A program made the position numbers and the translations under genes. The notes below the pieces were generated by a model, which saw only the letters and a list, made by a program, of their open reading frames with translations, ran no database searches and was not told where the DNA came from. From Gammaproteobacteria bacterium (GTDB lineage: Bacteria > Pseudomonadota > Gammaproteobacteria > Nevskiales > Nevskiaceae), in NCBI GenBank assembly GCA_026398815.1, contig JAPLSA010000024.1:1-64000 (forward strand): a DNA stretch of 64,000 nucleotides, given 5' to 3'. This document shows positions 2,866 through 35,310 of this stretch, one piece after another. Each line of letters opens with the position of its first letter. Position 1 is the stretch's first letter.

Positions 2866-2877
2866 AGGGCAGCGTGA

Positions 2878-6100: not shown

Positions 6101-7778
6101 CCCGCCCACGTGTATCCAGAATCTTGCTGGCCGAGTTTCCGCAGCTTTCGCACGGCATACTCGTACTGACAAGAACGGGCTGGTTGGGTGCCTGCGTCTG
6201 GTAAGTGAAATTCCGGACCGTGCCCAAAGGGTCGGTTACGACGACATGCTGATCATCCACATAATCGAGCAGATAGCTGCCGATCCCTCCCGCATAGGAC
6301 TGCGCAGTGACGCGCCCTCGGTCATCGTAGGACCAGCTCCGATACAGCTGACCACTCTCATCAGTTTCGGATGCAAGCTGCCAGTACGTGGACTGCCCGG
6401 CAGTATTGAACTTTGACGCCGGCTTGTTGACGTAACTGTATTGCTTGACGCCTCCGTCCGGGTACGTTACACGCTCCAGATTGTAATTGCTGTCAAATTG
6501 GTAACGATACTCAAGCCCCGACTGAGTGACGAATCCAGCAATGAACCCGGGTACTTCAAGATCAAAAAGGTACGATATCGATCGCCCGGCGTCATCGTAC
6601 ATGCGCATAATACCTGTCGTGCTGCTACCCTCATCAAAGGTGCCTGAGAATCTGTAGGTCGGCCGCCCTCTCGGCGTATAAGTCAGCGTTGCCCAGTCTC
6701 TGTCCCAAGTCGTTACCGATCCATCGGCTGACAAGAGCATCCAGGCCGTTTCATTTGACCCGGCATTAGGCATATGGCTTAGTACATCAGATGAGTTAAT
6801 CGAGCTATTCCAGCTTGACCCACTATCTAAGCTCCAGAAATCCTGTCCCTCTCCGCCGGGATACATGATTTGTATCCGTTGCGCATAGGATGGATCACCA
6901 GCCATTTGTAACGTTGTGCGTGACTTCATAAAAGGCATCGGCGGCCCAACCGCCCAACCTTGCGAGCTGGAGTAGCGTCGCACGGCTGATGGATTATCTG
7001 AATCTTGGTAATCCTGAAAACTGAAGAAAAGACTGCCATCCCCGGGAAACGTCGTGCCTGCTACCAAACCATCTTCGTTGTGGCAGCAGACGGGATTTGC
7101 CCAACTCAACGAAAAATCCGCATTTACTGTTCCAATTACATCAGGTTGTCCGAATGTAGTTTGCGTGTAAGGAATGCGAACTTCAAATGAACCGTCATTC
7201 GTCGTCACCCTGGTATCGATCGTTACTGAGAACTCTGTCTCTTTTCCAGCAGCCCCGCAATTCGCGGGCAGAACTAACGGATTGGGGGAAACTGATAGGG
7301 AAGCGCCATCTGGCAGCACGACGCTGCCAACATCAAATGAAACCGTACTTTCAGAGCTCGAACAATCTGCAGAGTATTTTCTTTTGATGGTATCTCCGGG
7401 AAAGTAGTAACAGAAGCTGTCTCCGCCCGATGCTGTCGGTTCTGAGCAGTTCGGATATTGTTCTAAGCCGCTGCTGGAAGCCACTATCTGCGTGGTGTTG
7501 CCCGATTTGATCAGCTGTCCGTCAAACCTCCGCATCACTTCTTTTATACTATTTTGAACACCCTTGGACTCCTGATTGGTTAACTTGGTTTTCTTTTCTT
7601 GGTTGCGAAGATTCCCATAGTAAAGATTCCATGGGCTATCATGTCTTTTCTCTTCCTTCGACACCATCAACGATGCCGAAACCATTGCATCGTTGCTCGG
7701 AACCCCACCGGAGTTACAGGCTGCCAGCAGAAAGCTGGTCACCGCAGTGAACACCGCTATTAATTTTCTTTTTTCCAC
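3192..7778 (-). CDS. RHS-repeat lipoprotein with C-terminal toxin-like domain, 1528 aa
   Basis: The start is a GTG at 7778 with AAGGA seven bases upstream. Residues 1-21 form a lipoprotein signal peptide with the lipobox LAAC (Cys21). An N-terminal region of about 350 residues is followed by many RHS/YD repeats (YDxxGRL, YTYDTNGSR) that build a beta cocoon, and the core junction GINTYAYVGGNPV...DPMGL near residue 1383. The last 145 residues are the variable tip. It has FGHVSANINGTNYSWGP (His1402) and MTNNCGDPHQDC (Cys1472). A His followed later by an NC motif resembles permuted papain-like/NlpC-P60 or LRAT-type hydrolases, so a peptidase, amidase or acyltransferase toxin is possible. The 5' part is clearly AT-richer than the host genes, a sign of transfer. 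Being a lipoprotein it may act at the surface by contact. Confidence 0.9.
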   Translation of the reverse strand: MEKRKLIAVFTAVTSFLLAACNSGGVPSNDAMVSASLMVSKEEKRHDSPWNLYYGNLRNQEKKTKLTNQESKGVQNSIKEVMRRFDGQLIKSGNTTQIVASSSGLEQYPNCSEPTASGGDSFCYYFPGDTIKRKYSADCSSSESTVSFDVGSVVLPDGASLSVSPNPLVLPANCGAAGKETEFSVTIDTRVTTNDGSFEVRIPYTQTTFGQPDVIGTVNADFSLSWANPVCCHNEDGLVAGTTFPGDGSLFFSFQDYQDSDNPSAVRRYSSSQGWAVGPPMPFMKSRTTLQMAGDPSYAQRIQIMYPGGEGQDFWSLDSGSSWNSSINSSDVLSHMPNAGSNETAWMLLSADGSVTTWDRDWATLTYTPRGRPTYRFSGTFDEGSSTTGIMRMYDDAGRSISYLFDLEVPGFIAGFVTQSGLEYRYQFDSNYNLERVTYPDGGVKQYSYVNKPASKFNTAGQSTYWQLASETDESGQLYRSWSYDDRGRVTAQSYAGGIGSYLLDYVDDQHVVVTDPLGTVRNFTYQTQAPNQPVLVSTSMPCESCGNSASKILDTRGRVVETADFLGRVTRHAYDGDSTLRAKTTEAVGTLVERTTEIEWDARSRLPTKIKQSGRTTQNVYDDGGKLLQKSIKDAASSRVMKTAYTYTSSNGISSVDGPRTDVADTTTISYYPVTEGDSRSGRIHQVTNALGHVTTYDLYDADGHALRMTDPNGVVSIFAYTARGKVASIQVASEIRTFDYWPTGLLKKISLPSGQSYTYSYNAAHHLIGVVDPDGNRIEYQVDGMGNRTATRVYDPAGTLVQIRQRTYDSLNRLWKEIGAYSEEITVHSYDGNGNHTGSTDPLGRLSSAQYDALGRASKLVDTNQGVTSLALNALDQVVSVEDPRGLDTSYTVNGFGNVEVLSSPDSGSSASTFDEAGNLKSRIDAKGQTTTYAYDALNRVTLKTRSDGSAVIYTWDQHDMAHGYGIGRLTGVSDSAGIASDFKYDAHGRLIRKSVTVGSQTLTTSWSYNATTGLLASMTTPSGRSVLYTWTRGRITALAGSNGSTTLAVVSNIQYQPFGDARSWRFANGQTINRVFDLDGRIVSDAVETVSYDAASRITGWSLGGFSQLNDTHAFSYDALDRVIGFGSSAIGSRSFTYDASGNRLSQAIEGEMRAYTMDPNNNRYQRNDGGVPAGPYTYDTNGSRTGHAGRMYSYDAERRLSGFNYGTRTATYSYDDASQRVRKIVNGVVTLFAYDDGGRLIGEYNASGVATLETIYLGNIPLVLFKGNTAYYVHSDHRNTPRQIDNASRQAVWRWNPTPFGDSAADGNPSSLSSTFTYNPRYPGQYYDAESGLHHNWHRSYDPALGRYLESDPLGLEAGINTYAYVGGNPVSRIDPMGLYTEIIIWQPVGYSSSSFGHVSANINGTNYSWGPGGWDGKYPNASDYAARQQGFRSGTGALLNLTADQENRLEACYAQRGGEYSAMTNNCGDPHQDCLQKVLGAPLSNSFFPVNIGNDLLNSPYFSGSTFYPGPERGFWDDGFWAR

Positions 7779-7818
7779 GAAATCATCCTTGAATAATTAG
7801 CCCTTCGTCCTGCCGACG

Positions 7819-7841
7819 ATCTGATGGTTTTGTCATCAGAT
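7819..7841 (-). promoter_or_regulatory. Inverted repeat in the leader of the RHS gene
   Basis: ATCTGATG (7819-7826) and CATCAGAT (7834-7841) are perfect 8-base inverted repeats around a 7-base spacer, 41 bases upstream of the RHS GTG and on its 5' side. It could be an operator or a small hairpin in the 5' leader. No promoter elements were identified with confidence. Confidence 0.4.
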
Positions 7842-8501
7842 GATGGCATCCAGTGCCGTAGTCATTGCGTCGGATGCTCGTATCTTTCGGGCTCGGTCGA
7901 CGTGTTTTTATATTGCATTGATCAGAAGATAGCGCGCATATTGTCTGACACACGCGATTTGGTGACCGACCAACGGCGGGCGCTGTGGATTGAGTCAACG
8001 CCGGAATTTTCTTAGTTAAGTGATTTTCTGGAGTGACGATATTCGGCAGATTGATATGCTGTTCTGAGAGCCGCTAGAGATCGCTTGGGGGAGCGAGCAT
8101 TCTCAAAAAAAATGGATCTCATTAGCTGAAACCGTATTCATTTCATTGCACTTGTAGCGAATTACGGCGTCACAAGTGAGGTTAATTCGCCTCTACTGTG
8201 CGCCGCCTCCGAGTCATTGGACGCGGGCGCTGATCGCAATTCCTTCGGCAAGCTTTCGTTGGCGACTGCCGCTGCGGGGAATCAGGCTGGATCATGCAGC
8301 GCTGCCAATCGACTGTTCTACGGCTAGGAACTGAGCCAGTTCATACCGAAAGCTACCCCGCCGGAACAATGCCGACGCCAGTCGCGCAAAGCGATCCGGG
8401 ACCGTCAAGCAAGCCAAGGTGGGGGACCAGTCCAACGCACCCGTCTGAGCAATTGTCACGGCCGCCTCGGCCAGTTTGCTCACGCACGCCGGAGTGCCGT
8501 C
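7842..8501. other. AT-richer intergenic region, no gene recognised
   Basis: About 660 bases between the divergently transcribed RHS gene and the amidase. Base composition is far lower in GC than the amidase gene that follows. The short open frames here have no plausible start sites or protein-like composition. It should hold the promoters of both genes and probably marks the boundary of the accessory segment. Confidence 0.4.
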
Positions 8502-10835
8502 TTGAACAGGTCTCGCGCCAACATCCTCTCGGCCCCAGGCCGCCAGCTCATCGGCATCGGCATTGCAAAAGCGCTTCTGATCGCAATCAGCGCCGCCAGC
8601 GCACCAGCCCAAGCCGGCGCGTTCGACGTCGTCGAAGCCAGCATCGCCGACACCCAGGCCGCGATCGCCAGCGGCAAGGCGAGCTGCCGCGACATTGTGC
8701 AGGCCTATCTCGATCGCGCCCGCGCCTACAACGGCGTCTGCACGGCGCTGGTGACGCCGGATGGCCGCAAGATCGCCGCCGCCAGCGGCTATGTCCGCGC
8801 CGGCAAGGCGCTGGCGTTCCCGACCGCGACGGTCAAGGCCTCGTCGATCTTTCCGGACCTCGGCCGTTACCAGGGCCTGCCGCTCGAATACGGGCAGATG
8901 GCGCACACGGTGTCGGACCCGGCGGCGATGACGCAGACCGGCATGCGCGTCGGCCTGCCCGACGCCGGCCAGCTCAATGCGCTGGAAACGCTGAACCTGC
9001 GCGGCGAGCGCTCGGTGACCTGCAAGGGCGACTTCGATCGCCATCCGTCGAAAGGCCCGCTGCCGAAGGACGCACCGGCGGTCTGCGAGGCGTTCCGCCA
9101 GCAGCCGGACGCGCTGGAGCGGGCCGCCGAACTCGATGCGCAGTACGGCCGCCAGCCGGATCTGGCGCAGCTGCCGATGTACTGCATCACGGTCGCCGTG
9201 AAGGATGTCTACGACACCCGCGACATGCGCACCACGGCCAACAACGACGTGCGCTTCGCGATGGACGCACCGCCGGCCGACGCGACCATCGTCGCCCGGC
9301 TGCGGGCACGCGGCGCGATCATCTACGCGAAATCGGTGGCCCATGAATTCAACGGCGGCCCGGGCGATCCGGGCGGCCCGAACAAGGCCACGAAGAACCT
9401 GGTCGCCGGCGGCCAGACGATGGGCAGCTGGGGCGGCCAGAGCTGCAATCCCTATGACACCGAGCGCGTTTCGCGCGGCTCCAGCGGAGGCTCCGGCGTC
9501 GCGGTGGCGGCGAATCTCGTCGCGATCGGCATCTGCGAGCAGTCGGGTGCGTCCTGCCAGGGGCCGGCGTCGCGCAACGGCATCGCCAGCCTGCTGACCA
9601 CCAAGGGCCTGCTGCCGGACAACGGCGGCGTCGGCTACCAGTGGTTCAACGATCGCGCCGGCATCCACGCGCGGACACTGGTCGATGCCGTGAAAGTGTT
9701 CGATGCGCTGCGCGATCCGGTCGATGGCTACTACGACCGCCGCGACGCCTTCACCGCCGTGCCGAAGGCGCTGGTGCCGGCGCAGCCGTATGCCGCCTCC
9801 ATCGTCAACGCCGTGGCCGCGACGCCGGCGACCGCGCCGCTGCGCGGGCTGCGCATCGCCATCGTCCGCGAGCACATGGTCAAGAAGACCGCCAACCACG
9901 TGGCGATCGCCGACCAGATCGACGGCGAGATCAAGCGCGTGCTGCGCGACCAGCTCGGCGCCGAGCTGGTCGAGCTGCGCGCCAGCGGCTATCCGGATGA
10001 TCCGGCGGTGCCGGATGTCGCCTACAGCTTCGGCGACGCGCTGTCGGAACTGCTGCCCTGGGCGATGCCGGAGATCTTCCAGCGGCGCGGCAAGGACGGC
10101 CAGCTGCTGTTCGCGGTGCCCGGCCACGACGTGACCTCCTACGACTACCTGCTGAAGCTGGCCCGCCGCGCGGCACCGCTGACCGATGCGGTGAACATCG
10201 CCAACTTCGCGAGCTTCGGCGCGCTGCCCTGCCAGCCGGCGCTGTGCGCGGACTTCGCGTTCGACATCGACCGCTACCTGCAGCAGCGCGGCGATGCGCG
10301 GATCAGGACCTGGGCCGACTGGGTCGAGCAGGCGATGTTCCGCGAGGACAAGTCGCTGGCCGGCGCCCGCAACTGGGCGCAGTGGCAGGGCCACCAGCAG
10401 GCCGGCAAGGCCGATGCACTGGCGCGCAGCCACATCGCGCGGCTGGCCCTGCTGCGGGTCATGTACGAGAACAGGATCGATGTCTTCGTGCACCCGGAGA
10501 ACATCGTGCCGACGCCGAAGATCCAGGGCCCGAACGTCGGCGCGATCAGCCTCGATGGCATCACGCCGTTCTTCCAGATCCCGCGCGTGGTGGTGCCGGC
10601 CGGCGTCACCCGCACGATCGTCGAGCCGGTCTACGCGCTGAACGAGGAGCGGACCGACTACCTCCCGGTGTTGCCGCCGAACGCCAAGCCGAAGCCGCTG
10701 AAGCATCCGCTACCGGTGTCGATCACCTTCTTCGCCGGCCAGGGCGAGGAACCGGTGCTGATCCGCGTCGCCACCGCCTACGAATCGGCGACCCGGCATC
10801 GCACGCCGCCGCCGGCCTTCGGCCCGCTGCGCTGA
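8502..10835 (+). CDS. Exported amidase-signature family protein, divergent and enlarged, 777 aa
   Basis: The TTG at 8502 is favoured by GGAG at 8491-8494 with seven bases of spacing and gives an N-terminal hydrophobic export signal (LIGIGIAKALLIAISAASAP). The amidase-signature triad is visible: Lys234 (ITVAVKDVYD), cis-Ser327 (RGSSGGSG) and Ser351, with the usual 24-residue distance between the serines. The normally strong GTDTGGSIR block is replaced by CEQSGASCQ, so the Asp and Arg next to the nucleophile are Gln. The protein is about 230 residues longer than the other amidases here, mainly by an insertion at residues 110-225 before the catalytic Lys. It probably hydrolyses an amide or ester in the periplasm; the substrate is unknown. 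It faces the minus-strand amidase cluster rather than joining it. Confidence 0.85.
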   Translation: MNRSRANILSAPGRQLIGIGIAKALLIAISAASAPAQAGAFDVVEASIADTQAAIASGKASCRDIVQAYLDRARAYNGVCTALVTPDGRKIAAASGYVRAGKALAFPTATVKASSIFPDLGRYQGLPLEYGQMAHTVSDPAAMTQTGMRVGLPDAGQLNALETLNLRGERSVTCKGDFDRHPSKGPLPKDAPAVCEAFRQQPDALERAAELDAQYGRQPDLAQLPMYCITVAVKDVYDTRDMRTTANNDVRFAMDAPPADATIVARLRARGAIIYAKSVAHEFNGGPGDPGGPNKATKNLVAGGQTMGSWGGQSCNPYDTERVSRGSSGGSGVAVAANLVAIGICEQSGASCQGPASRNGIASLLTTKGLLPDNGGVGYQWFNDRAGIHARTLVDAVKVFDALRDPVDGYYDRRDAFTAVPKALVPAQPYAASIVNAVAATPATAPLRGLRIAIVREHMVKKTANHVAIADQIDGEIKRVLRDQLGAELVELRASGYPDDPAVPDVAYSFGDALSELLPWAMPEIFQRRGKDGQLLFAVPGHDVTSYDYLLKLARRAAPLTDAVNIANFASFGALPCQPALCADFAFDIDRYLQQRGDARIRTWADWVEQAMFREDKSLAGARNWAQWQGHQQAGKADALARSHIARLALLRVMYENRIDVFVHPENIVPTPKIQGPNVGAISLDGITPFFQIPRVVVPAGVTRTIVEPVYALNEERTDYLPVLPPNAKPKPLKHPLPVSITFFAGQGEEPVLIRVATAYESATRHRTPPPAFGPLR

Positions 10836-11527: not shown

Positions 11528-12388
11528 TCAGTCGCCGGCCGGCAGCGCGCCCAGCGCGACCAGGCAGCTCCGGGCCAGCGCCCAGCGCTGCGGCAGCTGC
11601 TCCTCACCGGCGATATCCATGTTCAGCGCGAACGGCTGGCGCTGATCGCCGCGCCGCAGCCAGCCGACCACCCAGCCGATCTGCGGCCGGGTCGCCGTCG
11701 ACCAGCCGGTCTTGTAGTGCAGCGCGTACCCGGCGCTTTCCGCCTGCAGCGTGATCGCTTCCAGCGCCTCGACATGCGCCGGGCGCAGCGGCAGCGTCTG
11801 CCGCAGCAGGCGATCCAGGAACTGCACCTGCTCGACCGCCGAGATCGCCAGCGGCCCCTGCAGCCAGAAGCGGTCGACGACGGTGCCGATCTCGCCGTTG
11901 CCGTAGTCGAGCCGCCGGAGCATCGCCGCCATCCGCGCCAGGCCGATGCGGCGCGCCAGTTCCTGGTAGATCGGCACCGCCGAAACCCGGATCGCCTCGC
12001 GCAGCGGCATGTCGTGCTGCCATTCGGGTCGCGGCTGCGGCTGGCCGCCATAGGGCAGCACCTGGTCGACGCTGTCGACCGCGCCGGTTTCCAGGCCGAT
12101 CAGCGTGTTGACGAGCTTGAAGGTCGAGGCCGGGCTGTAGCGGCGGTCGGCACGCGCGCCACCGTCAACCTGCAGGCGACCGTGCTGGGGATCGAGCAGC
12201 ACGAAGGTGGCCGCCGCACCCGGCGGCAGGCAGGTCACCGCCACGCGCGGTGCGGCGGCAGCCGAAGCAGCGCCGCCGGCCAGCAGCAGCACGGTGGTCA
12301 GCAGCGACAGCAGCGTTCGCCATCGCCATGCCGATCGCAGTTGCAGAGCACAGCGGAACAGCCGGCGGCGGCAAGGGGGTGCGGACAT
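11528..12388 (-). CDS. Class D (OXA-type) beta-lactamase, 286 aa
   Basis: Serine beta-lactamase that would open beta-lactam rings in the periplasm. All class D landmarks are visible: S88-T-F-K91 with the nucleophilic Ser and the Lys that is normally carboxylated, S136-A-V, Y162-G-N, W175-LQGPLAIS, and K226-T-G. A membrane-like signal segment ends near ASAAAAP (residue 47). The ATG at 12388 is chosen because the longer frame to 12457 adds only Arg/Ser/Pro-rich residues; no strong ribosome site supports either. The size is normal for the family. It follows the yitT-like gene by 85 bases. Nothing mobile is seen next to it, so it looks like an intrinsic chromosomal enzyme. Confidence 0.88.
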   Translation of the reverse strand: MSAPPCRRRLFRCALQLRSAWRWRTLLSLLTTVLLLAGGAASAAAAPRVAVTCLPPGAAATFVLLDPQHGRLQVDGGARADRRYSPASTFKLVNTLIGLETGAVDSVDQVLPYGGQPQPRPEWQHDMPLREAIRVSAVPIYQELARRIGLARMAAMLRRLDYGNGEIGTVVDRFWLQGPLAISAVEQVQFLDRLLRQTLPLRPAHVEALEAITLQAESAGYALHYKTGWSTATRPQIGWVVGWLRRGDQRQPFALNMDIAGEEQLPQRWALARSCLVALGALPAGD

Positions 12389-12473
12389 GGCGGGCGACTC
12401 GGGAGGTGACGGGCCTGATCTGCAAGACGCGGCTGCCGACCGATCCCCCCGGTGCATCGCGCATGCGGGTCGC

Positions 12474-13088
12474 TCAGACGCCGAGATAGCGCCCCGGCCG
12501 GTGGTTCAGCGCCAGGATCGCGCCGATCGCCAGCGCGCCGACCACCGACTGCAGCACCCGCTCCGGCGGCACCACCCGCAGCGCGGCCAGCACCACCAGC
12601 ACGTCGACCGTCATCTGCACCTTGCCGGCGCTGTAGCCGCGCGACTGCTGCAGCCACTGGGCGACGATGTTGACGCCGCCGACGCTGGCGCCGTGGCGCA
12701 GCAGCGCCAGCAGGCCGAAGCCGATCAGGAAGCCGCCGAGCACCGAGGCCAGCCAGGGGTCGAGGAATTCGAAGCGCACCACTTTCGGCGCCAGCGCCGT
12801 GCAGACCGCCACCAGCGCCACGGCGACGAAGCTCTTGACCGTGAACAGCGGCCCGAGCCGGTACCAGGCCAGGCCGAAGAACGGCAGGTTCAGCACGAAG
12901 AAGAACAGCGCCACGCTGCCGCCGCTGGCATAGCTGATCAGGAAGGCGATGCCGGCGACGCCGCCGGTCAGCAGCCCGGCGTGGGCGAACATGGTCATGC
13001 CCAGCGCCACGAACAGCGCGCCGGTGACCAGCGCCTGGGCATCGTCAAGCCAGTTGTGGGCGATCGTGTCGGCGGCAGGCCTGTTCAT
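12474..13088 (-). CDS. YitT/DUF161-family membrane protein, 204 aa
   Basis: A small integral membrane protein with five to six hydrophobic segments. LLTGGVAGIAFLISYASG, ASVGGVNIVAQWLQQ and the repeated Gly-rich turns are characteristic of the YitT family, whose transported substrate is not established. The length of about 200 residues is short compared with Bacillus YitT (about 280), because the C-terminal cytoplasmic DUF2179 domain is absent, as in many proteobacterial members. It lies between the shikimate dehydrogenase-like gene and the beta-lactamase on the same strand. Confidence 0.85.
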   Translation of the reverse strand: MNRPAADTIAHNWLDDAQALVTGALFVALGMTMFAHAGLLTGGVAGIAFLISYASGGSVALFFFVLNLPFFGLAWYRLGPLFTVKSFVAVALVAVCTALAPKVVRFEFLDPWLASVLGGFLIGFGLLALLRHGASVGGVNIVAQWLQQSRGYSAGKVQMTVDVLVVLAALRVVPPERVLQSVVGALAIGAILALNHRPGRYLGV

Positions 13089-15254: not shown

Positions 15255-16862
15255 TCAGTACTCGAAACGCTCGCCGGGCAGCGGCGGCGTGGTGGCCGGC
15301 GCCACCCGATGCCGGGTCGCCTGCTCGTAGCTGTAGGCGTAGGCGAGCAGCTTCGGCTCGCTCCAGGCCGGGCCGAAGAACGAGATCGTCACCGGCATCT
15401 TGTCGCGGGTAACGCCGGCCGGAACGATCACATCCGGGAACTGCGTGACATTGGCGATGCTGGTCAGCGACGGCGTCGGCGGCCGGTCGACGATGTAGGG
15501 CGTCAGCGGGTCGATGATTTCCGGCTGCCGCGAACGGGTCGGATAGACCAGCACGTCGACCTTCTTCTCCTCCATCAGGCCGAGCACCGCACCGCGCACC
15601 GCCGGCATCGCGTACTGCTTGGCCGAGGTGTAGCTCAGCGCGGTCAGCGGCGGCCGTTCGCCCAGCGCCTTGAAGCGCGTGTAGACGCTGGGATGCGGCT
15701 GGAACTCGCCCTGCGGCGCGGTCAGCTTGATGCCCTTCTCGGCCAGTTCGGTGACGGTCTTCGGAAAGCCCGGCCGCAAGGTGGCCAGATAGTCGACGTA
15801 GTTGTCCTTCACCTCGGCGCGCATCGGCTCCATGACCACGGCGCGGTTCTGCATGACGATCGCCGGGTAGTGGACGTCCTCGACCAGCACCGCGCCGAGC
15901 TTTTCCAGCTCGGCGAGGCTTTCGTCGAACACCCGGTCGACTTCCGGATCGGTGCCCGCCAGATCGCGGATCACGCCAACCCGCACGCCCTTCAGCGCGT
16001 CCTTCTTCAGGAACGTCGTGTAGTCCTTGTAGCCGAGCCCGGCGCTGCCGCTGGTCAGCGGGTCCTTCGGATCGACGCCGGTCATGAAGCCCAGCGTCAC
16101 CGCCGCGTCGTAGACCGTGCGCGCCATCGGCCCGCCGGTATCGAAGCTCAGCACGCAGGGCATGATGCCGGTGCGCGAAATCAGGCCATTGGTCGGCTTG
16201 ATGCCCACCACGCCGTTGGCCGACGACGGGCCGCGGATCGAGCCGCCGGTATCGGAACCCAGGCCCACCGGCGCGAACCAGGCGGCCAGGCCGGCCCCGG
16301 TGCCGCCGCTGGAGCCGGCCGGATGGCGACGCGGATCATGCGGATTGCGGGTCTGGCCGAGGCGCGAGCTGTAGCCGATGCCGCCGTGCGCGAACTCATC
16401 CATGTTGACCTTGGCGAGGATGATCGCGCCGGCCTCGCGCAGCTGCTTGATGCTCGGCGCGTCCTGATACGGCACCGACTTGGCCAGCAGGAACACGCCG
16501 CCGCTGGTCGGCATGTCGGCGGTGTCGTAGTTGTCCTTCGCCAGCACCGGAATGCCGTGCAGCGGCGAGCGCCGGCCCTTCTTCTTGTACTCGGCGTCGA
16601 GCGCCTTCGCGGTCTCGATGGCCTTGGCATTCAGGGTGATCACCGTGTTCAGCGACGGCCCCTTCTTGTCGTAGGCGGCGATCCGCGCCAGGTACAGGCG
16701 GGTCAGCTTTTCATAGCTCAGCGCGCCGGCATCGACGGCGGCCTGGATGTCTTCGATGCCGGCGTTCTGCAACTCAAAAGTCTTGGCCTCGGCGACACCC
16801 GACAGGCCGAAGGCGAGCGCGATGCCGCAGAGCAGCGCGCGGTGCGCGGGAATGGGATTCAT
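15255..16862 (-). CDS. Exported amidase-signature hydrolase, 535 aa (tandem copy 4)
   Basis: A periplasmic serine amidohydrolase. The signal peptide MNPIPAHRALLCGIALAFGL ends near VAEA (residue 26). The Ser-cisSer-Lys triad is complete: Lys109 (VLAKDNYD), cis-Ser184 (AGSSGGTGAG) and Ser208 (GSDTGGSIRGP). The layout and length match exported peptide amidases of the Stenotrophomonas Pam type, which remove C-terminal amides from peptides, but the closest substrate cannot be fixed from sequence. It is the last of four tandem paralogues on this strand and lies 15 bases after the next copy, so it is probably cotranscribed with it. Confidence 0.92.
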   Translation of the reverse strand: MNPIPAHRALLCGIALAFGLSGVAEAKTFELQNAGIEDIQAAVDAGALSYEKLTRLYLARIAAYDKKGPSLNTVITLNAKAIETAKALDAEYKKKGRRSPLHGIPVLAKDNYDTADMPTSGGVFLLAKSVPYQDAPSIKQLREAGAIILAKVNMDEFAHGGIGYSSRLGQTRNPHDPRRHPAGSSGGTGAGLAAWFAPVGLGSDTGGSIRGPSSANGVVGIKPTNGLISRTGIMPCVLSFDTGGPMARTVYDAAVTLGFMTGVDPKDPLTSGSAGLGYKDYTTFLKKDALKGVRVGVIRDLAGTDPEVDRVFDESLAELEKLGAVLVEDVHYPAIVMQNRAVVMEPMRAEVKDNYVDYLATLRPGFPKTVTELAEKGIKLTAPQGEFQPHPSVYTRFKALGERPPLTALSYTSAKQYAMPAVRGAVLGLMEEKKVDVLVYPTRSRQPEIIDPLTPYIVDRPPTPSLTSIANVTQFPDVIVPAGVTRDKMPVTISFFGPAWSEPKLLAYAYSYEQATRHRVAPATTPPLPGERFEY

Positions 16863-16877
16863 GGCAGGGCTTCCGGA

Positions 16878-18521
16878 TCAGTAGGTCAGGACATCACCGG
16901 GCAGCGCCGGCGTGTGCTTCGGTTCCACCAGCGCGTGGGTGGCCTGCTCGAAGTCGTAGCCGTAGCCGAGCAGCTTCGGCTCGCTCCAGGCCGGGCCGAA
17001 GAACGAGATCGCCACCGGCAGACCTTCCGGCGTCATGCCGGCCGGCACGATCAGATCCGGATAGCCGGTCTCGTTGGCGAAGCTGGTGGCGCTGTCGGTG
17101 CCGGCGCTGGGCTGCGGCGGCTTGTCCGGCACGATCAGCGTCGCCGGCTTCGGCGAGGTCGGATAGACGATGGCGTCGACCTTGTACTTGCTGAAGACCG
17201 CATCGATGCCCGACTTCACCGCCGCCAGCTGCTCGTTCTTCACCGCGAGATAGGCCGGATCGTCGAGCGTCTGGGCGATCGACGCCGTGTACTTCAGCGC
17301 GTAGGCCTTGCCGGGTGACTGGAACTTGGTCTTCGGATCGTTGGACAGCGCCACCACCTCGTCGAAGCTCTTCGGATAGCCGGCCTTGGTGGTCTTCAGG
17401 TACTGGGTGACCTGGGCCTTGAACTCGGTCGACACCAGCTGGTTGTAGATCGGCTGCTTGGCGGCGATCAGGTAGTCCGGGTACTTGACGTCGACCACCG
17501 TCGCGCCCAGCGCCTTGAGCTTGGCGACGGCGGCAGTCATCACCGCATCGGTGCCTGCATCCTTGCCGGTGAAGTCGCGGGCAAAACCAATCCGCGCGCC
17601 CTTCAGCGAGCCGGTCTTCAGGAACTTCGTGTAGTCGGGCTCGATGTGGCCGGCGCTCTTGGCGGTGGCCGGATCGGCGGGATCGACGCCGGTCATCACG
17701 GTCAGCGAGGCAGCGATGTCGTAGACGCTGCGCGCCATCGGGCCGCCGGTGTCAAAGGACAGCGCCAGCGGCACGATGCCGTCGCGGCTCATCAGGCCGT
17801 GGGTCGGCTTCAGGCCGACGATGCCGTTGGCGGTCGACGGGCCGCGCACCGAGCCGCCGGTATCGGAACCCAGGCCGAACTGGCCGAACACCGCCGCGAT
17901 CGCCGCACCGGTGCCGCCGCTGGAACCGGCCGGGCCGCGCGTCAGGTCATGCGGGTTGCGGGTCTGGCCGCCCATCGAGCTGCTGCCGTTGGGCACCGCA
18001 CCGGCCTTCAGCACCGCCGGATCGGTGGCGCCGCTGACGCTGCCGCCGCTGCCGGCCCATTCGGAAAGATTGACCTTGGCGACGATGATCGCGCCGGCGT
18101 CCCGGAGCTTCTTGACCACGTAGGCATCGTCCGGCGGGATCGAGCCCTTCAGCAGCTGCGAGCCGGCCGTGGTCGGCAAGTCGAAGGTGTCGAAATTGTC
18201 CTTCAGCACGATCGGCACGCCGTGCAGCGGGCCGCGAACCTTGCCGGCCTTGCGCTCGGCGTCGAGCGCCTTGGCGACGTCGAGCGCCTTCGGGTTCAGG
18301 GTGATCACGCTGTTGATCACCGGGCCTTTCTGGTCATAGGCCTCGATGCGCGCCAGATACGCCTGGGTGACCTGCACGGCGCTGAGCTTGCCGCTGCCAT
18401 AGGCGGCCTGCAGGTCGGCGATGGTGGCGGTGGCGAGATTCAGGCTGGCGGCCTGGACGGGGTTGGTGAGGCTGCCGATCGCGAAGGCGAACGCGAGGGC
18501 GGACTGCTTGAGCGGCGTCAT
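16878..18521 (-). CDS. Exported amidase-signature hydrolase, 547 aa (tandem copy 3)
   Basis: The signal peptide covers about the first 25 residues (FAFAIGSLTNPVQAA). Triad: Lys107 (IVLKDNFD), cis-Ser200 (AGSSGGTGA), Ser224 (GSDTGGSVRGP). Compared with copy 4 it has an extra 15-20-residue loop around SGATDPAVLKAGAVPNGSSS, which it shares closely with copy 1 at 20185-21834; these two are the most alike of the set. Role: hydrolysis of an amide bond in the periplasm, substrate unknown. Spacing is 15 bases to the downstream copy and 43 bases from the upstream copy, consistent with one operon. Confidence 0.92.
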   Translation of the reverse strand: MTPLKQSALAFAFAIGSLTNPVQAASLNLATATIADLQAAYGSGKLSAVQVTQAYLARIEAYDQKGPVINSVITLNPKALDVAKALDAERKAGKVRGPLHGVPIVLKDNFDTFDLPTTAGSQLLKGSIPPDDAYVVKKLRDAGAIIVAKVNLSEWAGSGGSVSGATDPAVLKAGAVPNGSSSMGGQTRNPHDLTRGPAGSSGGTGAAIAAVFGQFGLGSDTGGSVRGPSTANGIVGLKPTHGLMSRDGIVPLALSFDTGGPMARSVYDIAASLTVMTGVDPADPATAKSAGHIEPDYTKFLKTGSLKGARIGFARDFTGKDAGTDAVMTAAVAKLKALGATVVDVKYPDYLIAAKQPIYNQLVSTEFKAQVTQYLKTTKAGYPKSFDEVVALSNDPKTKFQSPGKAYALKYTASIAQTLDDPAYLAVKNEQLAAVKSGIDAVFSKYKVDAIVYPTSPKPATLIVPDKPPQPSAGTDSATSFANETGYPDLIVPAGMTPEGLPVAISFFGPAWSEPKLLGYGYDFEQATHALVEPKHTPALPGDVLTY

Positions 18522-18564
18522 GGGAAGCGGTTCCTCGAAGGGGAGCGGCGGTGGATGCAGGCGA

Positions 18565-20169
18565 TCAGGGCAGCAGCGTTTCGCCGGCCAGTGGCGGCGT
18601 CGCGGCGGGTGCCCGGCGGTGATGGGTGGCGGCCTCGTAGCCGCTGGCGAGCTTGATCAGCGTCGGCTCGGTGAACGGCTTGCCGAGGAACTGCACGGCG
18701 AACGGCATGCCGTCGGACGGGAAGAAGCCGCCCGGCACGACGATGGTCGGCAGGCCGGTGTACGAGGCGATGGCGTTGCGGTTCTCGCTGCGCGCGCCCG
18801 GTGCGGCCGGCGGGTTCGGCGTGGCCTTGAAGTCGTCGGCGAGCGCGGTGCGGTACGGCAGGATCAGGCCGTCGAGCTGGTACTTGTCGATCAGTCCGGT
18901 CAGCGCCTCGCGCATCACCGTCTGGTGCTTCATCGCGGCCAGCAGTTCCGGGCTGTGGTCGATCGACCCGTACTGGTAGGACTCGACGATGCGCGGCTTC
19001 ACCAGCGCCCCGCCCTTGGCGATCATCTCGGCGACGCTGCGGATCGGCGCGCTGGCCGGCAGCCGGGCCAGATAGGCGTCGATCGCGGTGGCGACCTCGT
19101 AGCGCGGCGCATCGGCCAGCGTCTGGCTGTCGGCCAGCCCGAGGCCGGTGTCGACCGGATCGACGATCACCGCGCCGGCCGCCTTGAAGTCGGCGATCGC
19201 CCGCTCGAACAGCGCCCTGCCTTCCTCGTGCACCGGGCCGCTGCGCACCATCTCGCGCAGCACGCCGAGGCGTGCGCCCTTCAGGCCGGTCTTCGACACG
19301 AAGCTGGCGTACGGCCGCTCGGGCAGCTTGCCGATGCCGGCCTGGGTGGCGAGATCGGCGGCGTCGTAGCCGGCGATGACATCGAGCACGGCGGCGCAGT
19401 CGGCGACGCTGCGGCACATCGGCCCGCCGCTTTCCTGCGATGGACTGCTCCACATCATGCCGGTGCGGCTGACGAGGCCGTGGGTCGCCGAGATGCCGAC
19501 CAGGTTGGCCAGCGTGCTGGGGATGACGATCGAGCCGGTGGTGTCGCTGCCGAGGCCGACGGTGCCGAACCAGGCGGCGATCGCCGAGCCGGTGCCGCTG
19601 CTCGAACCACCGGTCGATTTCTTCGCGTTGTACGGGCTCAGCACCGGCCCTTTCAGCGAGCTGCCACCGGGCGCAGCGACGCCGTACCAGTCCGACTGGT
19701 TGAGCTTGGCGAGGATCACCACGCCGGCCTTGCGCAGGCGGTCGATGACGAAGGCGTCGCGATCCGGCTGCGAGGTGGCCATCGGCTTGAAGCCGCCGGA
19801 GGTCGGCAGATCCTTGGTGTCGAAGACATCCTTGGCCAGCAGCACGATGCCGTGCAGCGGCGAGCGCAGGCCCTTTTCGCGGCGCTCCTTGTCGAGCGCC
19901 TTCGCTTCCTCGAGCGCGCGCTTGTTCAGGGTGATGACGCTGTTCAGCGCCGGCCCCTTGGCGTCATAGGCCTCGATGCGGGCGAGATGAAGCCGGACCA
20001 GCTGCTCGGAACTCAGGCTGCCGCCGGTCATCAGCGCCTGCAGCTCGGCGATGCTGGCGGTGGCCAGGTCGAGCGCGGCCTGTGCCGGACTGGCGAAGGC
20101 CAGCGCTGCGGCGACCGCCAGCGCAGCCAGCGGGCGGCGCGGCAGACAGATCATCGGAATGCGGGTCAT
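18565..20169 (-). CDS. Exported amidase-signature hydrolase, 534 aa (tandem copy 2)
   Basis: Signal peptide of about 31 residues (ALAVAAALAFASPAQA). Triad: Lys113 (VLLAKDVFD), cis-Ser189 (GGSSSGTGS), Ser213 (GSDTTGSIVIP). The nucleophile block differs from its neighbours: TTGSIV instead of TGGSIR/VR, so the Arg after the nucleophile is absent. This is closer to the TDGSIV form of the Stenotrophomonas peptide amidase. It is thus the most divergent of the four tandem copies and may have its own substrate. It lies 15 bases downstream of copy 1. Confidence 0.92.
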   Translation of the reverse strand: MTRIPMICLPRRPLAALAVAAALAFASPAQAALDLATASIAELQALMTGGSLSSEQLVRLHLARIEAYDAKGPALNSVITLNKRALEEAKALDKERREKGLRSPLHGIVLLAKDVFDTKDLPTSGGFKPMATSQPDRDAFVIDRLRKAGVVILAKLNQSDWYGVAAPGGSSLKGPVLSPYNAKKSTGGSSSGTGSAIAAWFGTVGLGSDTTGSIVIPSTLANLVGISATHGLVSRTGMMWSSPSQESGGPMCRSVADCAAVLDVIAGYDAADLATQAGIGKLPERPYASFVSKTGLKGARLGVLREMVRSGPVHEEGRALFERAIADFKAAGAVIVDPVDTGLGLADSQTLADAPRYEVATAIDAYLARLPASAPIRSVAEMIAKGGALVKPRIVESYQYGSIDHSPELLAAMKHQTVMREALTGLIDKYQLDGLILPYRTALADDFKATPNPPAAPGARSENRNAIASYTGLPTIVVPGGFFPSDGMPFAVQFLGKPFTEPTLIKLASGYEAATHHRRAPAATPPLAGETLLP

Positions 20170-20184
20170 CGGCCGGCCCCCGCG

Positions 20185-21834
20185 TCAGTTGCGCATCGCC
20201 AGGCTGTCGCCCGGCAATGGTGGCGTGGTCTTCGGCAGCACCCGGGCCTTGGTGGCCTGCTCGAAGTCGTAGCCGTAGCCGAGCAGCTTCGGTTCGCTCC
20301 AGGCCGGGCCGAAGAACGAGATCGTCACCGGCAGGCCGTTCGGGGTGATGCCGGCCGGCACGATCAGATCCGGATAGCCGGTCTCGTTGGCGAAGCTGGT
20401 TGCCGACAGGCCGCCGGCCGACGGTTCGCCGATCAGGGTCGCCGGCTTCGGCGAGGTCGGATAGACGATGGCGTCGAGCTTGTCGGCCGCGAACAGCGCA
20501 TCGATGCCGGCCTTGATCGCCGGCAGGCCCTGGTTCCTGGCAGCGAGGTAGCGCGGGTCATCGAGCGACAGCGCCTGCGTCGCCGTGTACTTCAGCGCAT
20601 AGGCCTTTTGCGGCGCGCGGTAGCCGGTCTTCGGATCGTTGGACAGCGCCACCACCTGCTCGAAGGTCTTCGGATAGGCCGGGCCAGTGGTCTTCAGATA
20701 GTCGGTGACCTGGGCCTTGAATTCCGACGACATCATCAGCGTCAGCAGCGGCTGCTTGGCGGCCAGCAGGTAGTCCGGATACTTGATGTCGACGACCGTC
20801 GCGCCCTTCAGCCGCAGCATCTCGATGGCGCGCGCCATCACCAGATCAGTGCCGGCGTCCTTGCCCATGAAGTCCCGCGCGATGCCGATCCGCGCGCCCT
20901 TGAGCGCGCCGCGCTTCAGGTACTTCAGGTAGTCCTGCTCGGCGTGGCCGGCGCTCTTCGCGGTGGCCGGATCGGCCGGATCGACGCCGGTCATCACGCC
21001 CAGCGCCAGCGCCAGATCCTCGACGCTGCGGGCCATCGGCCCGCCAGTGTCGAAGGAGAGCGCCAGCGGGATGATGCCGTCGCGGCTCATCAGGCCGAGC
21101 GTCGGCTTCAGGCCGACGATGCCGTTGGCCGACGACGGCCCGCGCACCGAGCCGCCGGTGTCGGTGCCGAGGCCGAACTGCGCGAAGGCAGCCGCGATTG
21201 CCGCGCCGGTGCCGCCGCTGGAGCCGGACGGGCCGCGCGCCAGATCGTGCGGATTGCGGGTCTGGCCGCCCATCGAGCTGCTGCCGTTCGGCACCGTGCC
21301 GGCCTTGATCACCTCCGGATCGGTGGCGCCGCTGACGCTGCCGCCGCCACCGGCCCATTCCGACAGATTGACCTTGGCCAGCACGATGGCGCCGGCCGCG
21401 CGCAGCTTCTTGACGACAAAGGCATCGTCCGGCGGGATCGAGCCCTTCAGCAGCTGGCTGCCGCCGGTGGTGGGCAGGTCGAAGGTGTCGAAGTTGTCCT
21501 TCAGCACGATCGGAATGCCGTGCAGCGGGCCGCGCAGCTTGCCGGCCTTGCGCTCGGCATCCAGCGTCCGCGCCAGCTCCAGCGCCTTCGGGTTGAGCGT
21601 GATCACGGTGTTCAGCACCGGACCTTTCTGGTCGTAGGCCTCGATGCGGGCGAGATAGAGGCCGGCGAGCTTTTCGGCGCTGAGCGCGCCGGATGCCATG
21701 GCCGCCTGCAGGTCGGCGATGGTCGCCGACTCCAGTTCCAGCGCCGCCGCCGGTGCGGCTGTCCATCCGGCTGCCAGGGCAGCGCAGGTCGCCAAGGCCA
21801 GCGACAGGGGTTTGAGCTTGGATGCGGCTTTCAT
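20185..21834 (-). CDS. Exported amidase-signature hydrolase, 549 aa (tandem copy 1)
   Basis: The ATG at 21834 has GGAG eight bases upstream and starts a signal peptide (MKAASKLKPLSLALATCAAL, ending near APAAA); the longer frame to 21918 adds a Pro/Gly-rich stretch without export character. Triad: Lys112, cis-Ser205 (SGSSGGTGA), Ser229 (GTDTGGSVRGP). It shares the loop SGATDP...GTVPNGSSSMGG with copy 3. It is the first gene of the amidase group, 160 bases downstream of the TPR gene of the TonB module. A hairpin at 21948-21975 in that gap suggests a separate transcript. Confidence 0.92.
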   Translation of the reverse strand: MKAASKLKPLSLALATCAALAAGWTAAPAAALELESATIADLQAAMASGALSAEKLAGLYLARIEAYDQKGPVLNTVITLNPKALELARTLDAERKAGKLRGPLHGIPIVLKDNFDTFDLPTTGGSQLLKGSIPPDDAFVVKKLRAAGAIVLAKVNLSEWAGGGGSVSGATDPEVIKAGTVPNGSSSMGGQTRNPHDLARGPSGSSGGTGAAIAAAFAQFGLGTDTGGSVRGPSSANGIVGLKPTLGLMSRDGIIPLALSFDTGGPMARSVEDLALALGVMTGVDPADPATAKSAGHAEQDYLKYLKRGALKGARIGIARDFMGKDAGTDLVMARAIEMLRLKGATVVDIKYPDYLLAAKQPLLTLMMSSEFKAQVTDYLKTTGPAYPKTFEQVVALSNDPKTGYRAPQKAYALKYTATQALSLDDPRYLAARNQGLPAIKAGIDALFAADKLDAIVYPTSPKPATLIGEPSAGGLSATSFANETGYPDLIVPAGITPNGLPVTISFFGPAWSEPKLLGYGYDFEQATKARVLPKTTPPLPGDSLAMRN

Positions 21835-21994: not shown

Positions 21995-23422
21995 TCAGTC
22001 GGCGCGACTGGCCACGGTGGCCGCCGCCGCGTCGCGCGCTGCCGAGGCATCCGGCGCCGCGCCCGGCGCTGGCTGGGTCGACAGCGAACGCAGCCATTCG
22101 CTGGCCTGCGCCCGGGTGTCGTCATAGGCGACCGATTTCTGCAGCGCGGCGATCGCGCCCTTCAGGTCGTTGGCGCCGTAGTGGGCAACGGCGATGCGGA
22201 ACCAGGCTTCGCCGGGCTTCTTCAGGCCGCCTTTTTCCAGCGCCCGTTCCAGCATTTCGCGGGAATCCTTCCAGCGCTCCTGATCGCCGTACATCGCGCC
22301 GAGGCGGAAGTAGTACTCGCCGCGCTCGGCCATCGCCGCCAGCTGCTTCAGCGTGGCTTCGGCCTTGGCGGTCTCGCGGGCGTTGATCCAGGCGTTCGAC
22401 ACCGATTCCAGGTTCTTCTCGTCGAGCGGCAGCTTGTTGTCGGCGATCGCCTGATCCATCAGCTGCGCGGCCTTCTGCGGCTCGCCGATGATCATGTAGG
22501 TGTTGTACAGGTTGCGGATGTCGTCGGCGCTGGCCAGCATCCCCTGCCGCTCGGCCAGCGCCAGCACCGCCGCCGCCTGGGTGCTGTCTTCCATCTGCAG
22601 CAGCACGCCGGCCAGCTGCTTCCAGTAGTCGGCCTTGCCGGTGTTGACGGCGATCAGCTGCAACAGCGTTTCCGCCGAACCCTTGTAGTCCTTGGCCTCG
22701 TAAAGCAGACCGAGCTTGAACTGCACCCAGGACTCCTTGACGACCTTGCTGGCAGCCAGCGCGATGTCGACTTCGGCCAGGGCTTCCGGGTAGCGCTTGC
22801 GCTCGGCCAGCGCGCTGGCCAGGAACACATGGGCATCCGGCGACACCGGATTGCAGGCCTTGGCCATGTAGTCGCGCAGCGCTTCGATGCCGGCATCGAA
22901 CTGGCCGCTGGCGACATACAGCTGGCCGAGGTTGAAGCGCAGCTGCTCGCTCTGCTGCAGCGACAGCGCGTTGTACGACAGCGCCTTGGCGAAGTACGAC
23001 GCCGACGCGGCGAGGTCGTTCTTCTCGGAGTAGCCGATGCCGAGGTTGTAGTGGACCACGGCCTTGTCGTAGTCCTCGCCCTTGGTCACCAGCTTCTTGA
23101 GCTTGTCGATCGCCAGATCGGTCTTCTTCTCGCCGAGCAGCACCGAGGCTTCCCGCATGTCCTCGACGAGATCCTCGCTGAGGTTGGCGGTTGCCTTCTG
23201 CTTCGACGGCAGGCATTCGGCGCGCACGCCGGCCGCGATCATCGCCGCTTCCTTGGCGGCGGCGATCTGGGCCGGTGTCTGCCGGACCGGTTGAGGATTC
23301 GGGCTCTGTGCCAGGGCCGGGCCGCTGGTGGCCAGACCGACGGCGGCAAGGGCCGCCAGCCGGTGCCAGCCCCGAACCCGAGCGGAAACGGCGACAGCAG
23401 TGGCTGGATGCTGGTAGCTCAT
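21995..23422 (-). CDS. Exported TPR protein of the TonB2-type module, 475 aa
   Basis: Signal peptide ending near SGPALAQ, then roughly ten tetratricopeptide-like helical pairs (KAVVHYNLGIGYSEKNDL, HVFLASALAERKRYPEAL, YYFRLGAMYGDQERW). In Vibrio the tonB2-exbB2-exbD2-ttpC locus also ends with a TPR gene of this kind, thought to assist the TonB2 complex in the periplasm. The ATG at 23422 has GGAG eight bases upstream, and another in-frame ATG at 23428 overlaps the tonB stop; either start keeps the genes coupled. A low-complexity Ala/Ser tail ends the protein. Confidence 0.88.
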   Translation of the reverse strand: MSYQHPATAVAVSARVRGWHRLAALAAVGLATSGPALAQSPNPQPVRQTPAQIAAAKEAAMIAAGVRAECLPSKQKATANLSEDLVEDMREASVLLGEKKTDLAIDKLKKLVTKGEDYDKAVVHYNLGIGYSEKNDLAASASYFAKALSYNALSLQQSEQLRFNLGQLYVASGQFDAGIEALRDYMAKACNPVSPDAHVFLASALAERKRYPEALAEVDIALAASKVVKESWVQFKLGLLYEAKDYKGSAETLLQLIAVNTGKADYWKQLAGVLLQMEDSTQAAAVLALAERQGMLASADDIRNLYNTYMIIGEPQKAAQLMDQAIADNKLPLDEKNLESVSNAWINARETAKAEATLKQLAAMAERGEYYFRLGAMYGDQERWKDSREMLERALEKGGLKKPGEAWFRIAVAHYGANDLKGAIAALQKSVAYDDTRAQASEWLRSLSTQPAPGAAPDASAARDAAAATVASRAD

Positions 23423-23427
23423 GGTCA

Positions 23428-24114
23428 TCACTCCGCGGCGCTCAGGTTGAACTCGATGCGCTGCACGCCGTGGAACTCGACGGCCTTGCCGTCGACGGTC
23501 TTCGGCTTGAAGCGCCATTTCTGCACGGCGGTCACGGCGGCCGCCTCGAACAGGCCCTTCGGCTTGGCCTCGACGACTCTCGCCTTGCGGACGCTGCCGT
23601 CCGGGTTGACGGTGACGTCGATCAGCACATAGCCATTGATGCCGCCGCGCCGCGCATCTGCCGGATAGGTCGGCGGAATGCGCTGCAACGGCACCAGATC
23701 GCTGTCCATCGCGCCGGCCAGGCTGCCGGTGCCACCGCCGGTGCCAGCGGACATGCTGCTCGGCAGGCCGAGGTTGGTCGGAATGCCGATGCCGGCGGAT
23801 GGCGCCGCGACATCGACATCGATCTTCATCTTCGACGGCGGCGCTGGCGATTTCGCCGGCGGCGGCGGTGGCGGCTTGCGCCGCTCGGTCTGCTCCGGCG
23901 CGCTGTCGCGCTTCAGGCGCACGAAGTCGATGGTCGGCAGGTTCTCCACCTTGTTGACGCCGTGACCACTGACGTGGATCACCGCGTACATCAGCCAGAA
24001 GAACATCAGCGAGGTGAGGATCGACATGCATAGTGCCGTCGTCCACCGGGTGCCGAAGCTGGCCTTCGGCAGGTTCAGCTCGAACTCGGTCGCAGTCGTG
24101 GTTGCGGGTGCCAT
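23428..24114 (-). CDS. tonB: TonB-family energy transducer, 228 aa
   Basis: Links the inner-membrane ExbB/ExbD motor to outer-membrane receptors. One membrane segment (residues about 25-47, TTALCMSILTSLMFFWLMYA), a periplasmic proline-rich spacer (RRKPPPPPPAKSPAPPSK), a Gly-rich linker, and a C-terminal TonB domain with RIPPTYPADARRGG, GYVLIDVTVNPDGS and AVQKWRFKPKTV. The short spacer and lack of long EP/KP repeats resemble TonB2 rather than enteric TonB. It lies 11 bases after the second exbD and overlaps the start of the TPR gene. Confidence 0.92.
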   Translation of the reverse strand: MAPATTTATEFELNLPKASFGTRWTTALCMSILTSLMFFWLMYAVIHVSGHGVNKVENLPTIDFVRLKRDSAPEQTERRKPPPPPPAKSPAPPSKMKIDVDVAAPSAGIGIPTNLGLPSSMSAGTGGGTGSLAGAMDSDLVPLQRIPPTYPADARRGGINGYVLIDVTVNPDGSVRKARVVEAKPKGLFEAAAVTAVQKWRFKPKTVDGKAVEFHGVQRIEFNLSAAE

Positions 24115-35097: not shown

Positions 35098-35310
35098 CTT
35101 CCAATTCTGCCATCGCCTGCGGACAACGGCGATGCAGGCCAGCATTACGCGCGCCGTCCATGGCGCATTCCCGGCAAGGCACGGGGCCTGGCGCAGGGCC
35201 TGTAGCCACAGGCCGACGAGGCGTGGCGGTGATGCAGGCAGGCTGCATCGGCCGCCGCGATGACTGCCGGGGCGGGAAACCGGGCCGCCGGCATCAACAG
35301 CGCGTTCGGG

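Follow-up and report, generated by a model that had tools for sequence, protein, structure and literature searches.

The 64,000-nucleotide window analysed here (G000:C8:1-64000), from contig JAPLSA010000024.1 of a bacterium of the Nevskiaceae, carries four adjacent genes for exported amidases of the amidase signature (AS) family:

20185-21834, minus strand: AS amidase copy 1 (A); 549 amino acids, Sec-type signal, loop-bearing, PF01425; orthologue g45 in the same-genus genome G002, 87% identical
18565-20169, minus strand: AS amidase copy 2 (B); 534 amino acids, motif SDTTGSIVIPS, PF01425, AlphaFold model
16878-18521, minus strand: AS amidase copy 3 (C); 547 amino acids, loop-bearing, PF01425, AlphaFold model
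15255-16862, minus strand: AS amidase copy 4 (D); 535 amino acids, without the loop, PF01425

The genes are transcribed in the order copy 1, 2, 3, 4, with intergenic gaps of 15, 43 and 15 bases. All four belong to the AS family, matching PF01425 across the whole domain with 245-342 bits (cut-off 27), and each product starts with a hydrophobic stretch and an A-X-A site, as judged by eye and not by a signal-peptide program. The Lys/cis-Ser/Ser triad was found at residues 112/205/229 in copy 1, 113/189/213 in copy 2, 107/200/224 in copy 3 and 109/184/208 in copy 4, which puts the two serines 24 residues apart in every copy. The Lys and the cis-Ser are 93 residues apart in copies 1 and 3, as opposed to 76 in copy 2 and 75 in copy 4, and this difference corresponds to a loop common to copies 1 and 3. 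The nucleophile motif is SDTTGSIVIPS in copy 2 and [ST]DTGGS[IV]RGPS in the other three. Copies 1 and 3 are 76% identical, copy 4 shares 51-53% with both of them, and copy 2 shares 40-41% with the rest. An earlier sequence-only reading had described four co-directional exported AS genes, complete triads with serines 24 residues apart, a loop in copies 1 and 3 that copy 4 lacks, and TTGSIV in copy 2, and all of this agrees with our observations. Since the sequence of Pam, a peptide amidase of known structure, has the same 24-residue spacing by our count, the spacing is not peculiar to this locus and is no evidence for a recent common origin. Of 150 aligned AS rows, 148 have K in the Lys column and S in the nucleophile column, the Lys being missing in two fragments; the third column scored was the Ser beside the cis-Ser, not the cis-Ser itself.

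The same reading had explained the array by repeated duplication followed by active-site change. A FastTree phylogeny of the 150 rows, from which the G013 rows (a duplicate of L053) and short domains were left out, divided the copies among three clades, a large one with copies 1 and 3 and one each with copy 4 and with copy 2, and each of these clades also contains Verrucomicrobiota or other Gammaproteobacteria. IQ-TREE and approximately unbiased (AU) tests were run on 72 rows chosen from the Pam-like part of this phylogeny; the long branches that the quick tree warned of do not include copies 1-4. A single clade for the Nevskia forms of all four copies was rejected (p-AU 2e-140), as was a clade of copies 1, 3 and 4 (p-AU 2e-5). 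Copies 1 and 3 as sisters were not rejected (p 0.53), and they may be a lineage-specific pair. A recent tandem duplication of all four copies is ruled out by the AU test. TTGSIV as a fresh active-site change is also ruled out, because it belongs to an old clade that reads [TGSE]GSI[VT] across several phyla, and Pam itself reads TDGSIV. Each of the four copies has its own orthologue in G002, at 86-90% identity. What stands of the duplication scenario is the possible sister relationship of copies 1 and 3. The sequence-only reading had held that placement with unrelated lineages would speak against it, and for copies 2 and 4 this is largely what the comparisons gave. Substrate diversification, which it had also suggested, remains plausible since these are diverged exported paralogues with different loops, but repeated duplication of one gene in this lineage is not supported as its source. 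The pockets were compared by loop length and motif only.

The array cannot be interpreted alone because it lies inside a much larger locus of amide hydrolases and TonB-related genes. The part of this locus that surrounds it in the window, including the predicted regulatory genes, is as follows:

12474-13088, minus strand: YitT-family membrane protein, conserved next to the array in G002 and L053
13158-13988, minus strand: shikimate dehydrogenase-like protein, conserved next to the array in G002 and L053
14118-15128, minus strand: acetamidase/formamidase-like protein, PF03069 (scanned from the upstream start 15218)
21995-23242, minus strand: TPR protein of the TonB system (family scan)
23428-24114, minus strand: TonB, PF03544
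24126-24533, minus strand: ExbD, PF02472
24582-24995, minus strand: second ExbD, PF02472
25027-25551, minus strand: ExbB, PF01618
25544-26944, minus strand: MotA/TolQ/ExbB-family protein, PF01618
26944-27717, minus strand: DUF3450 protein adjoining the TonB system, PF11932
27820-30759, minus strand: TonB-dependent receptor with Plug domain (family scan)
30817-33783, minus strand: TonB-dependent receptor with STN signalling domain (scanned from the upstream start 33822)
34099-35145, minus strand: FecR-type anti-sigma factor (family scan)
35311-35898, minus strand: extracytoplasmic function (ECF) sigma factor, FecI-like (family scan)
35982-35997, minus strand: sigma-54-like -24/-12 element TGGCATATCGTTTGCT, 83 bases before the ECF start

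In G002 the locus is found in one piece of about 79 kb on the 1.36-Mb contig C5, from the sigma-54-like element at 949674 to 1028248. It starts with an ECF sigma homologue, FecR, two TonB-dependent receptors, DUF3450, two ExbB-family genes, two ExbD genes, TonB and TPR, the receptors and TonB system being identified by similarity to the window genes. It further holds 17 AS open reading frames, two PF00710 asparaginases, a third, distant asparaginase-like protein, a formamidase-like gene, flavin monooxygenase-like, AMP-binding and nitrilase-family genes, and RND genes, of which the adaptor came from a family scan and the pump was recognised by eye only. Six of the 17 AS proteins have a twin-arginine motif, and nine of the other 11 have a hydrophobic stretch with A-X-A by a simple rule, which g77 and g83 fail. 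An NtrC-type activator and a kinase adjoin the end of the island. Window genes 12474-33783 are collinear with G002 except for the FmdA-like gene, in place of which G002 has a dienelactone hydrolase-like gene, and the remainder of the island sits on contigs C18 and C3 of the window genome.

The 4.3-Mb window genome has 23 PF01425 matches, or about 20 AS genes once the pieces of one gene are joined. In the comparison with 60 relatives, at most 22 candidates were scored, and counts for rich genomes may be too low. Within the genus, seven of 17 relatives have at least 13 AS matches (13-26) and ten have 2-8; in two other genera of the family, one genome reaches 27 (G031) and one 14 (G024). Among 143 genomes drawn evenly across the class, with at most 10 candidates scored per genome, the window genome came top in first-look AS candidates (28, runner-up 18). 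Asparaginase matches at E<1e-40, a cut-off picked after the list had been viewed, occur in nine of the ten family genomes with at least 13 AS matches vs none of the 27 others (37 genomes; Fisher p 8e-8).

The gene set recurs far outside the family. A scan with copy 2 gave 18 loci, of which 12 (L044-L055) are close relatives at 61-88% identity, in Nevskia, a Lysobacteraceae-labelled assembly, Cellvibrionaceae, Thalassocella, an unplaced gammaproteobacterium and Verrucomicrobiota. The distant AS relatives L056-L061 were left out of the cross-phylum argument. Nine genomes that carry such close relatives, G061-G069, have 30, 24, 29, 36, 25, 22, 13, 23 and 8 AS matches, with 22-36 in seven of the nine; the last of them is, by its contig coordinates, G010 among the relatives. 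In the verrucomicrobial stretch V65 (G065:C274), a run on a single strand comprises RND genes, a distant asparaginase, 11 AS genes, two asparaginases, a formamidase-like gene and a receptor, with a DUF3450/Exb operon divergent from it. V67 has nearly the same set, namely a TonB operon, a receptor, AS genes, two asparaginases, a formamidase-like gene and RND genes, and subsets were found in V61a, V61b, V64a, V64b, C62 and T66 (partial versions in G061, G062, G064 and G066). The gene names in the Verrucomicrobiota, Cellvibrionaceae and Thalassocella stretches were given by similarity to G002 genes, except for those proteins that were scanned.

Vertical descent was gauged with GatA as the control; its identity between G000 and each of four Verrucomicrobiota genomes is 51-55%. 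Compared with stretches of the same four genomes, the G002 proteins AS_A and AS_C reach 66-71% and 65-74%, AS_B (copy 2) 67-72% in all four, and AS_D (copy 4) 76-77% in two of the four. The RND pump is at 76% in one genome, the asparaginases at 61-67%, the formamidase-like protein at 61-63%, other AS types at 27-76% and the receptors at 29-31%; low values possibly mean that the orthologue lies outside the stretch compared. The RND pump is kept at 70-76% in G062 and G065. Since the identity of enzymes and pump is above that of GatA while the receptors are at about 30%, several of the enzymes and the RND pump are best explained by transfer across phyla, and the receptors look locally recruited. 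Plasmid carriage was also considered: among 72,556 plasmid records, copy 2 had 12 matches at E <=1e-60 with a best identity of 39%, and no close relative was found.

A distant asparaginase-like protein of 560-592 amino acids (PF00710, 27-30 bits) was observed at L037 2261-4039 (minus strand; G002) and at L078 12230-13969 (minus strand; V65). Of six genomes from other lineages, four retain it in their arrays, with 54-74% identity.

The -24/-12 consensus for sigma-54 promoters is TGGCAC-N5-TTGCT-like (PMC12316311). Within the window alone, the sigma-54-like pattern is no rarer than chance (2 sites vs 1.9 expected), and it is the conservation across ECF loci, not rarity in the window, that carries weight for the promoter reading. 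An element with at most two mismatches precedes the ECF gene in all nine loci whose ECF protein is 62-100% identical, and in one of five control ECF/FecR loci. The elements start 57-147 bases before the mapped ECF start, and their flanks mostly differ. The nine loci are five close Nevskia relatives plus G024, G008, G006 and G031, all AS-rich, and represent about five independent lineages; simulated upstream regions of the same dinucleotide content carry an element with a probability of 0.04-0.08 each.

Strict TGGCAYN5TTGCT sites number 10 in the window genome, 14 in G002, 5 in G024 and 11 in G065 (0, 2, 3 and 3 for the reversed control). In the window genome, G002 and G065, a single strict site each lies at these operons; none of the five in G024 does, the element there having two mismatches. 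Other strict sites in the window genome precede type IV pilin, FliL-like, porin-like, PQQ-type dehydrogenase, patatin-like and sigma-54 activator-like genes, named by eye; type IV pilin and FliL-like genes are known sigma-54 clients. Across eight stretches that come from six genomes of Verrucomicrobiota, Cellvibrionaceae and Thalassocella (C62 gave no heads), the element was found at six of nine receptor/TonB operon heads vs six of 184 other genes (p 1e-6), and with operon-first genes only, at five of seven vs five of 97 (p 5e-5). Sigma-54 control of the locus, as predicted from the conserved element, is moderately supported.

Taken together, the four genes probably belong to an amide-utilisation locus that has spread horizontally, analogous for amides to a polysaccharide utilisation locus. 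This interpretation builds on gene content, conservation, phylogeny, the identity excess over GatA and the promoter-like elements. The existence of a recurring, transferred gene set is well supported by these comparisons, and nitrogen acquisition from peptide-like amides is our best guess for its function. RNA polymerase with sigma-54 would transcribe the ECF sigma/FecR pair. The STN-bearing receptor would sense an amide-rich, most likely peptide-like compound that exceeds the size limit of porins, and together with the second receptor would import it, driven by the ExbB/ExbD/TonB/TPR motor encoded in the locus. In the periplasm, the Sec- and Tat-exported AS amidases and the asparaginase- and formamidase-type enzymes would cut its different amide bonds, yielding acids and either ammonia or amino compounds. 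Among the copies, the loop preceding the cis-Ser and the residues flanking the nucleophile vary and could suit different amides, and the RND pump might expel a toxic substrate or product. The enzyme set would have been copied between phyla and the receptors recruited locally. More tentatively, and at somewhat less than even odds, this may be a distinct class of sigma-54-controlled, horizontally mobile catabolic loci which combine TonB-dependent import with at least 11 exported amidases, occur in unrelated, apparently mostly freshwater bacteria (Nevskia, Cellvibrionaceae, Verrucomicrobiota) with some 20-36 AS matches per genome, and obtain nitrogen from complex peptides. The freshwater habitat of the hosts is suggested by some record titles that name a lake. 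No description of such a locus was found in the titles and abstract openings of the literature searched, most subscription journals being outside its coverage.

Several observations weigh against the amide-utilisation interpretation. AS_D is only 49-51% identical in two of the four Verrucomicrobiota genomes and AS_57 is at 53-65%, so not every island enzyme exceeds GatA. The best solved matches of the receptors are siderophore receptors, mainly via STN and plug. The distant asparaginase g55 of the G002 island had no match in G000. G015 of the family has 13 AS matches without an asparaginase, and G060, from another family, has one strong asparaginase match with only nine AS matches. In L054 a copy-2 orthologue follows a peptide-type binding protein and the other genes of the set are missing. 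The relatives' genes were called by a simple purpose-made caller, retrained per genome. On the regulatory side, the sites before genes outside nitrogen metabolism make these plausible sigma-54 promoters and no proof of nitrogen control; three of the nine receptor/TonB heads have no element, and the heads were named after the promoter scan had been viewed. Gene neighbourhoods were examined at seven of the nine ECF loci, all but L100 and L102 (G006 and G031). An NtrC-like box, TGCACC-N5-GTG, is common only to the five close Nevskia loci, at -187 to -210; it has three mismatches to the NtrC palindrome, and the 64-kb window holds 51 such matches. Other three-mismatch matches occur in L099 and L102 and none in L098 and L100. 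The boxes are suggestive in the Nevskia group only.

Among other explanations, the locus might degrade specific bioactive non-ribosomal or cyclic peptides, for example cyanobacterial cyanopeptides, as food or in defence, with the RND pump protecting the cell. At least two host record titles name lakes (ErkenSummer, LacPavin), the pump is conserved in G062 and G065, peptidase-resistant bonds would need amidases, and the nearest fold is a peptide amidase. Still, no genetic or chemical link to such peptides was seen, and the asparaginases and formamidase-like genes would suit primary amides equally well. We regard this specific version as unlikely. A little less likely is that the locus is a general-purpose set for small primary amides and nitriles, namely amino-acid amides, asparagine and formamide, and that the TonB part is an unrelated neighbour. 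Asparaginase, formamidase-like and nitrilase-family genes are present by family matches, and such enzymes act on small amides or nitriles. However, receptors and TonB/Exb operons adjoin the arrays in G000, G002, G024, V65, V61a, V67 and T66, and several of these array-side operons carry sigma-54-like elements.

Local tandem duplication and neofunctionalisation of one exported amidase, the origin proposed in the sequence-only reading, is improbable. The tandem order and the close similarity of copies 1 and 3 agree with it, and lineage-specific extra copies do exist elsewhere, such as a second copy-4-type gene in L053 (70%). For the set of four it is refuted by the AU tests on the four-copy clade and on copies 1, 3 and 4, and the Verrucomicrobiota counterparts of copies 2 and 4 exceed GatA in identity. 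We give very little credence to a role as interbacterial effectors or as cell-wall amidases. One AS protein, the type VI effector Tse8, was among the structural matches, but Pam is far nearer (Z 52-54 vs about 41), and the proteins carry export signals. Among the scanned proteins no secretion-system gene was recognised, although no search was aimed at such genes.

If the amide-utilisation interpretation is correct, several phyla would have an undescribed route to recover nitrogen from peptide-like dissolved organic matter. The exported amidase clades, with their ordered genomic context, would be useful for enzyme discovery, and one could ask which natural amides (cyanopeptides, peptide amides, Asn/Gln-rich peptides) drive the expansion.

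Other features were observed in the window and around the arrays. The window contains a fifth, very diverged AS gene that is absent from the sequence-only reading:

8502-10835, plus strand: fifth AS protein; 777 amino acids, motif EQSGASCQGPA, orthologue of G002 g54 (80%)

The clade it belongs to extends to G002, G024 and G031 and, more distantly, to Acidobacteria and Rhizobium. A 1528-amino-acid RHS-repeat open reading frame (3192-7778, minus strand) lies between the g56-like and g54-like genes, at the place where G002 has g55, and G+C drops to 0.515-0.586 across 2001-8000. A class D beta-lactamase-like protein (11528-12457, minus strand) scored 243.3 bits to bla_class_D_main, below the cut-off of 250. 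A GH5-type gene is positioned at 36277-37656, upstream of the ECF gene. In G000, the halves of one AS gene of the g83 type are found at C18:98486-99007 and C3:95469-96218, each away from a contig end, as if a rearrangement broke the gene. In G010, a copy-2 orthologue is spread over two frames (C18:67825-69438) and the AS set is reduced to eight matches, as if the locus were decaying. The 570-amino-acid G002 protein g61 (L037 10974-12686, plus strand) has no Pfam or NCBIfam match and adjoins the asparaginase pair in G000, G002, G024 and C62. SPFH/Band-7 proteins lie beside the arrays at L068 11925-16934 (minus strand; G024), next to a P-type ATPase, and at L070 10861-12765 (minus strand; G008). 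An oligopeptide ABC transporter as part of the cluster in G024 and G008 was rejected since Pfam shows P-type ATPase and SPFH/Band-7 instead, and a peptide-type binding protein was found near a copy-2 orthologue only in L054.

The AlphaFold models of copies 2 and 3 (pLDDT 89 and 87) both show the AS fold. Their nearest solved structure is Pam from Stenotrophomonas maltophilia (PDB 1m21 and 1m22), with Z 52.6 for copy 2 and 53.9 for copy 3, compared with about 47 for GatA. Over all comparisons with Pam, 472-486 residues aligned with Z 51.9-53.9 and 36-42% identity, and the fold, the Lys/cis-Ser/Ser triad and the 24-residue spacing are shared. Unlike Pam, copy 3 carries about 13 additional residues ahead of the cis-Ser, and copies 1, 3 and 4 read GGS[IV]R where Pam reads DGSIV. 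The loop region 151-180 of the copy 3 model is of low confidence (pLDDT 52-67 by blocks), which is consistent with a flexible loop. The tree groups Pam with the G031 C40 and G000 C28b genes (support 1.0) and leaves copies 1-4 outside, and all four copies score 338-488 bits against the NCBIfam equivalog PRK08137 amidase (NF006006), below its curated cut-off of 534.

The asparaginase g62 of G002 (324 amino acids) resembles type II L-asparaginase, with 294 bits to the solved L-asparaginase 2, and differs in its place inside amidase arrays, where it is accompanied by g63, another PF00710 protein, and in some loci by a distant third. The gene order at 21995-27717 matches that of TonB2/TtpC-kind clusters, which run DUF3450-ExbB-ExbB-ExbD-TonB-TPR and serve iron uptake; here, however, there are two ExbD genes and the system is coupled to amidase arrays, not to iron uptake. 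Polysaccharide utilisation loci and TonB-linked carbohydrate (CUT) systems combine a TonB-dependent receptor with clustered exported hydrolases, an STN receptor and a FecI/FecR pair. No SusD family was seen among the proteins scanned, which are part of the island genes, and because the clustered hydrolases are amidases the locus is not itself a polysaccharide utilisation locus. It shares with these systems the receptor with a locally expanded panel of exported hydrolases and the STN and FecI/FecR signalling, and it differs from them in having amidases in place of glycosidases, its own ExbB/ExbD/TonB/TPR motor, an RND pump and a sigma-54-like element.

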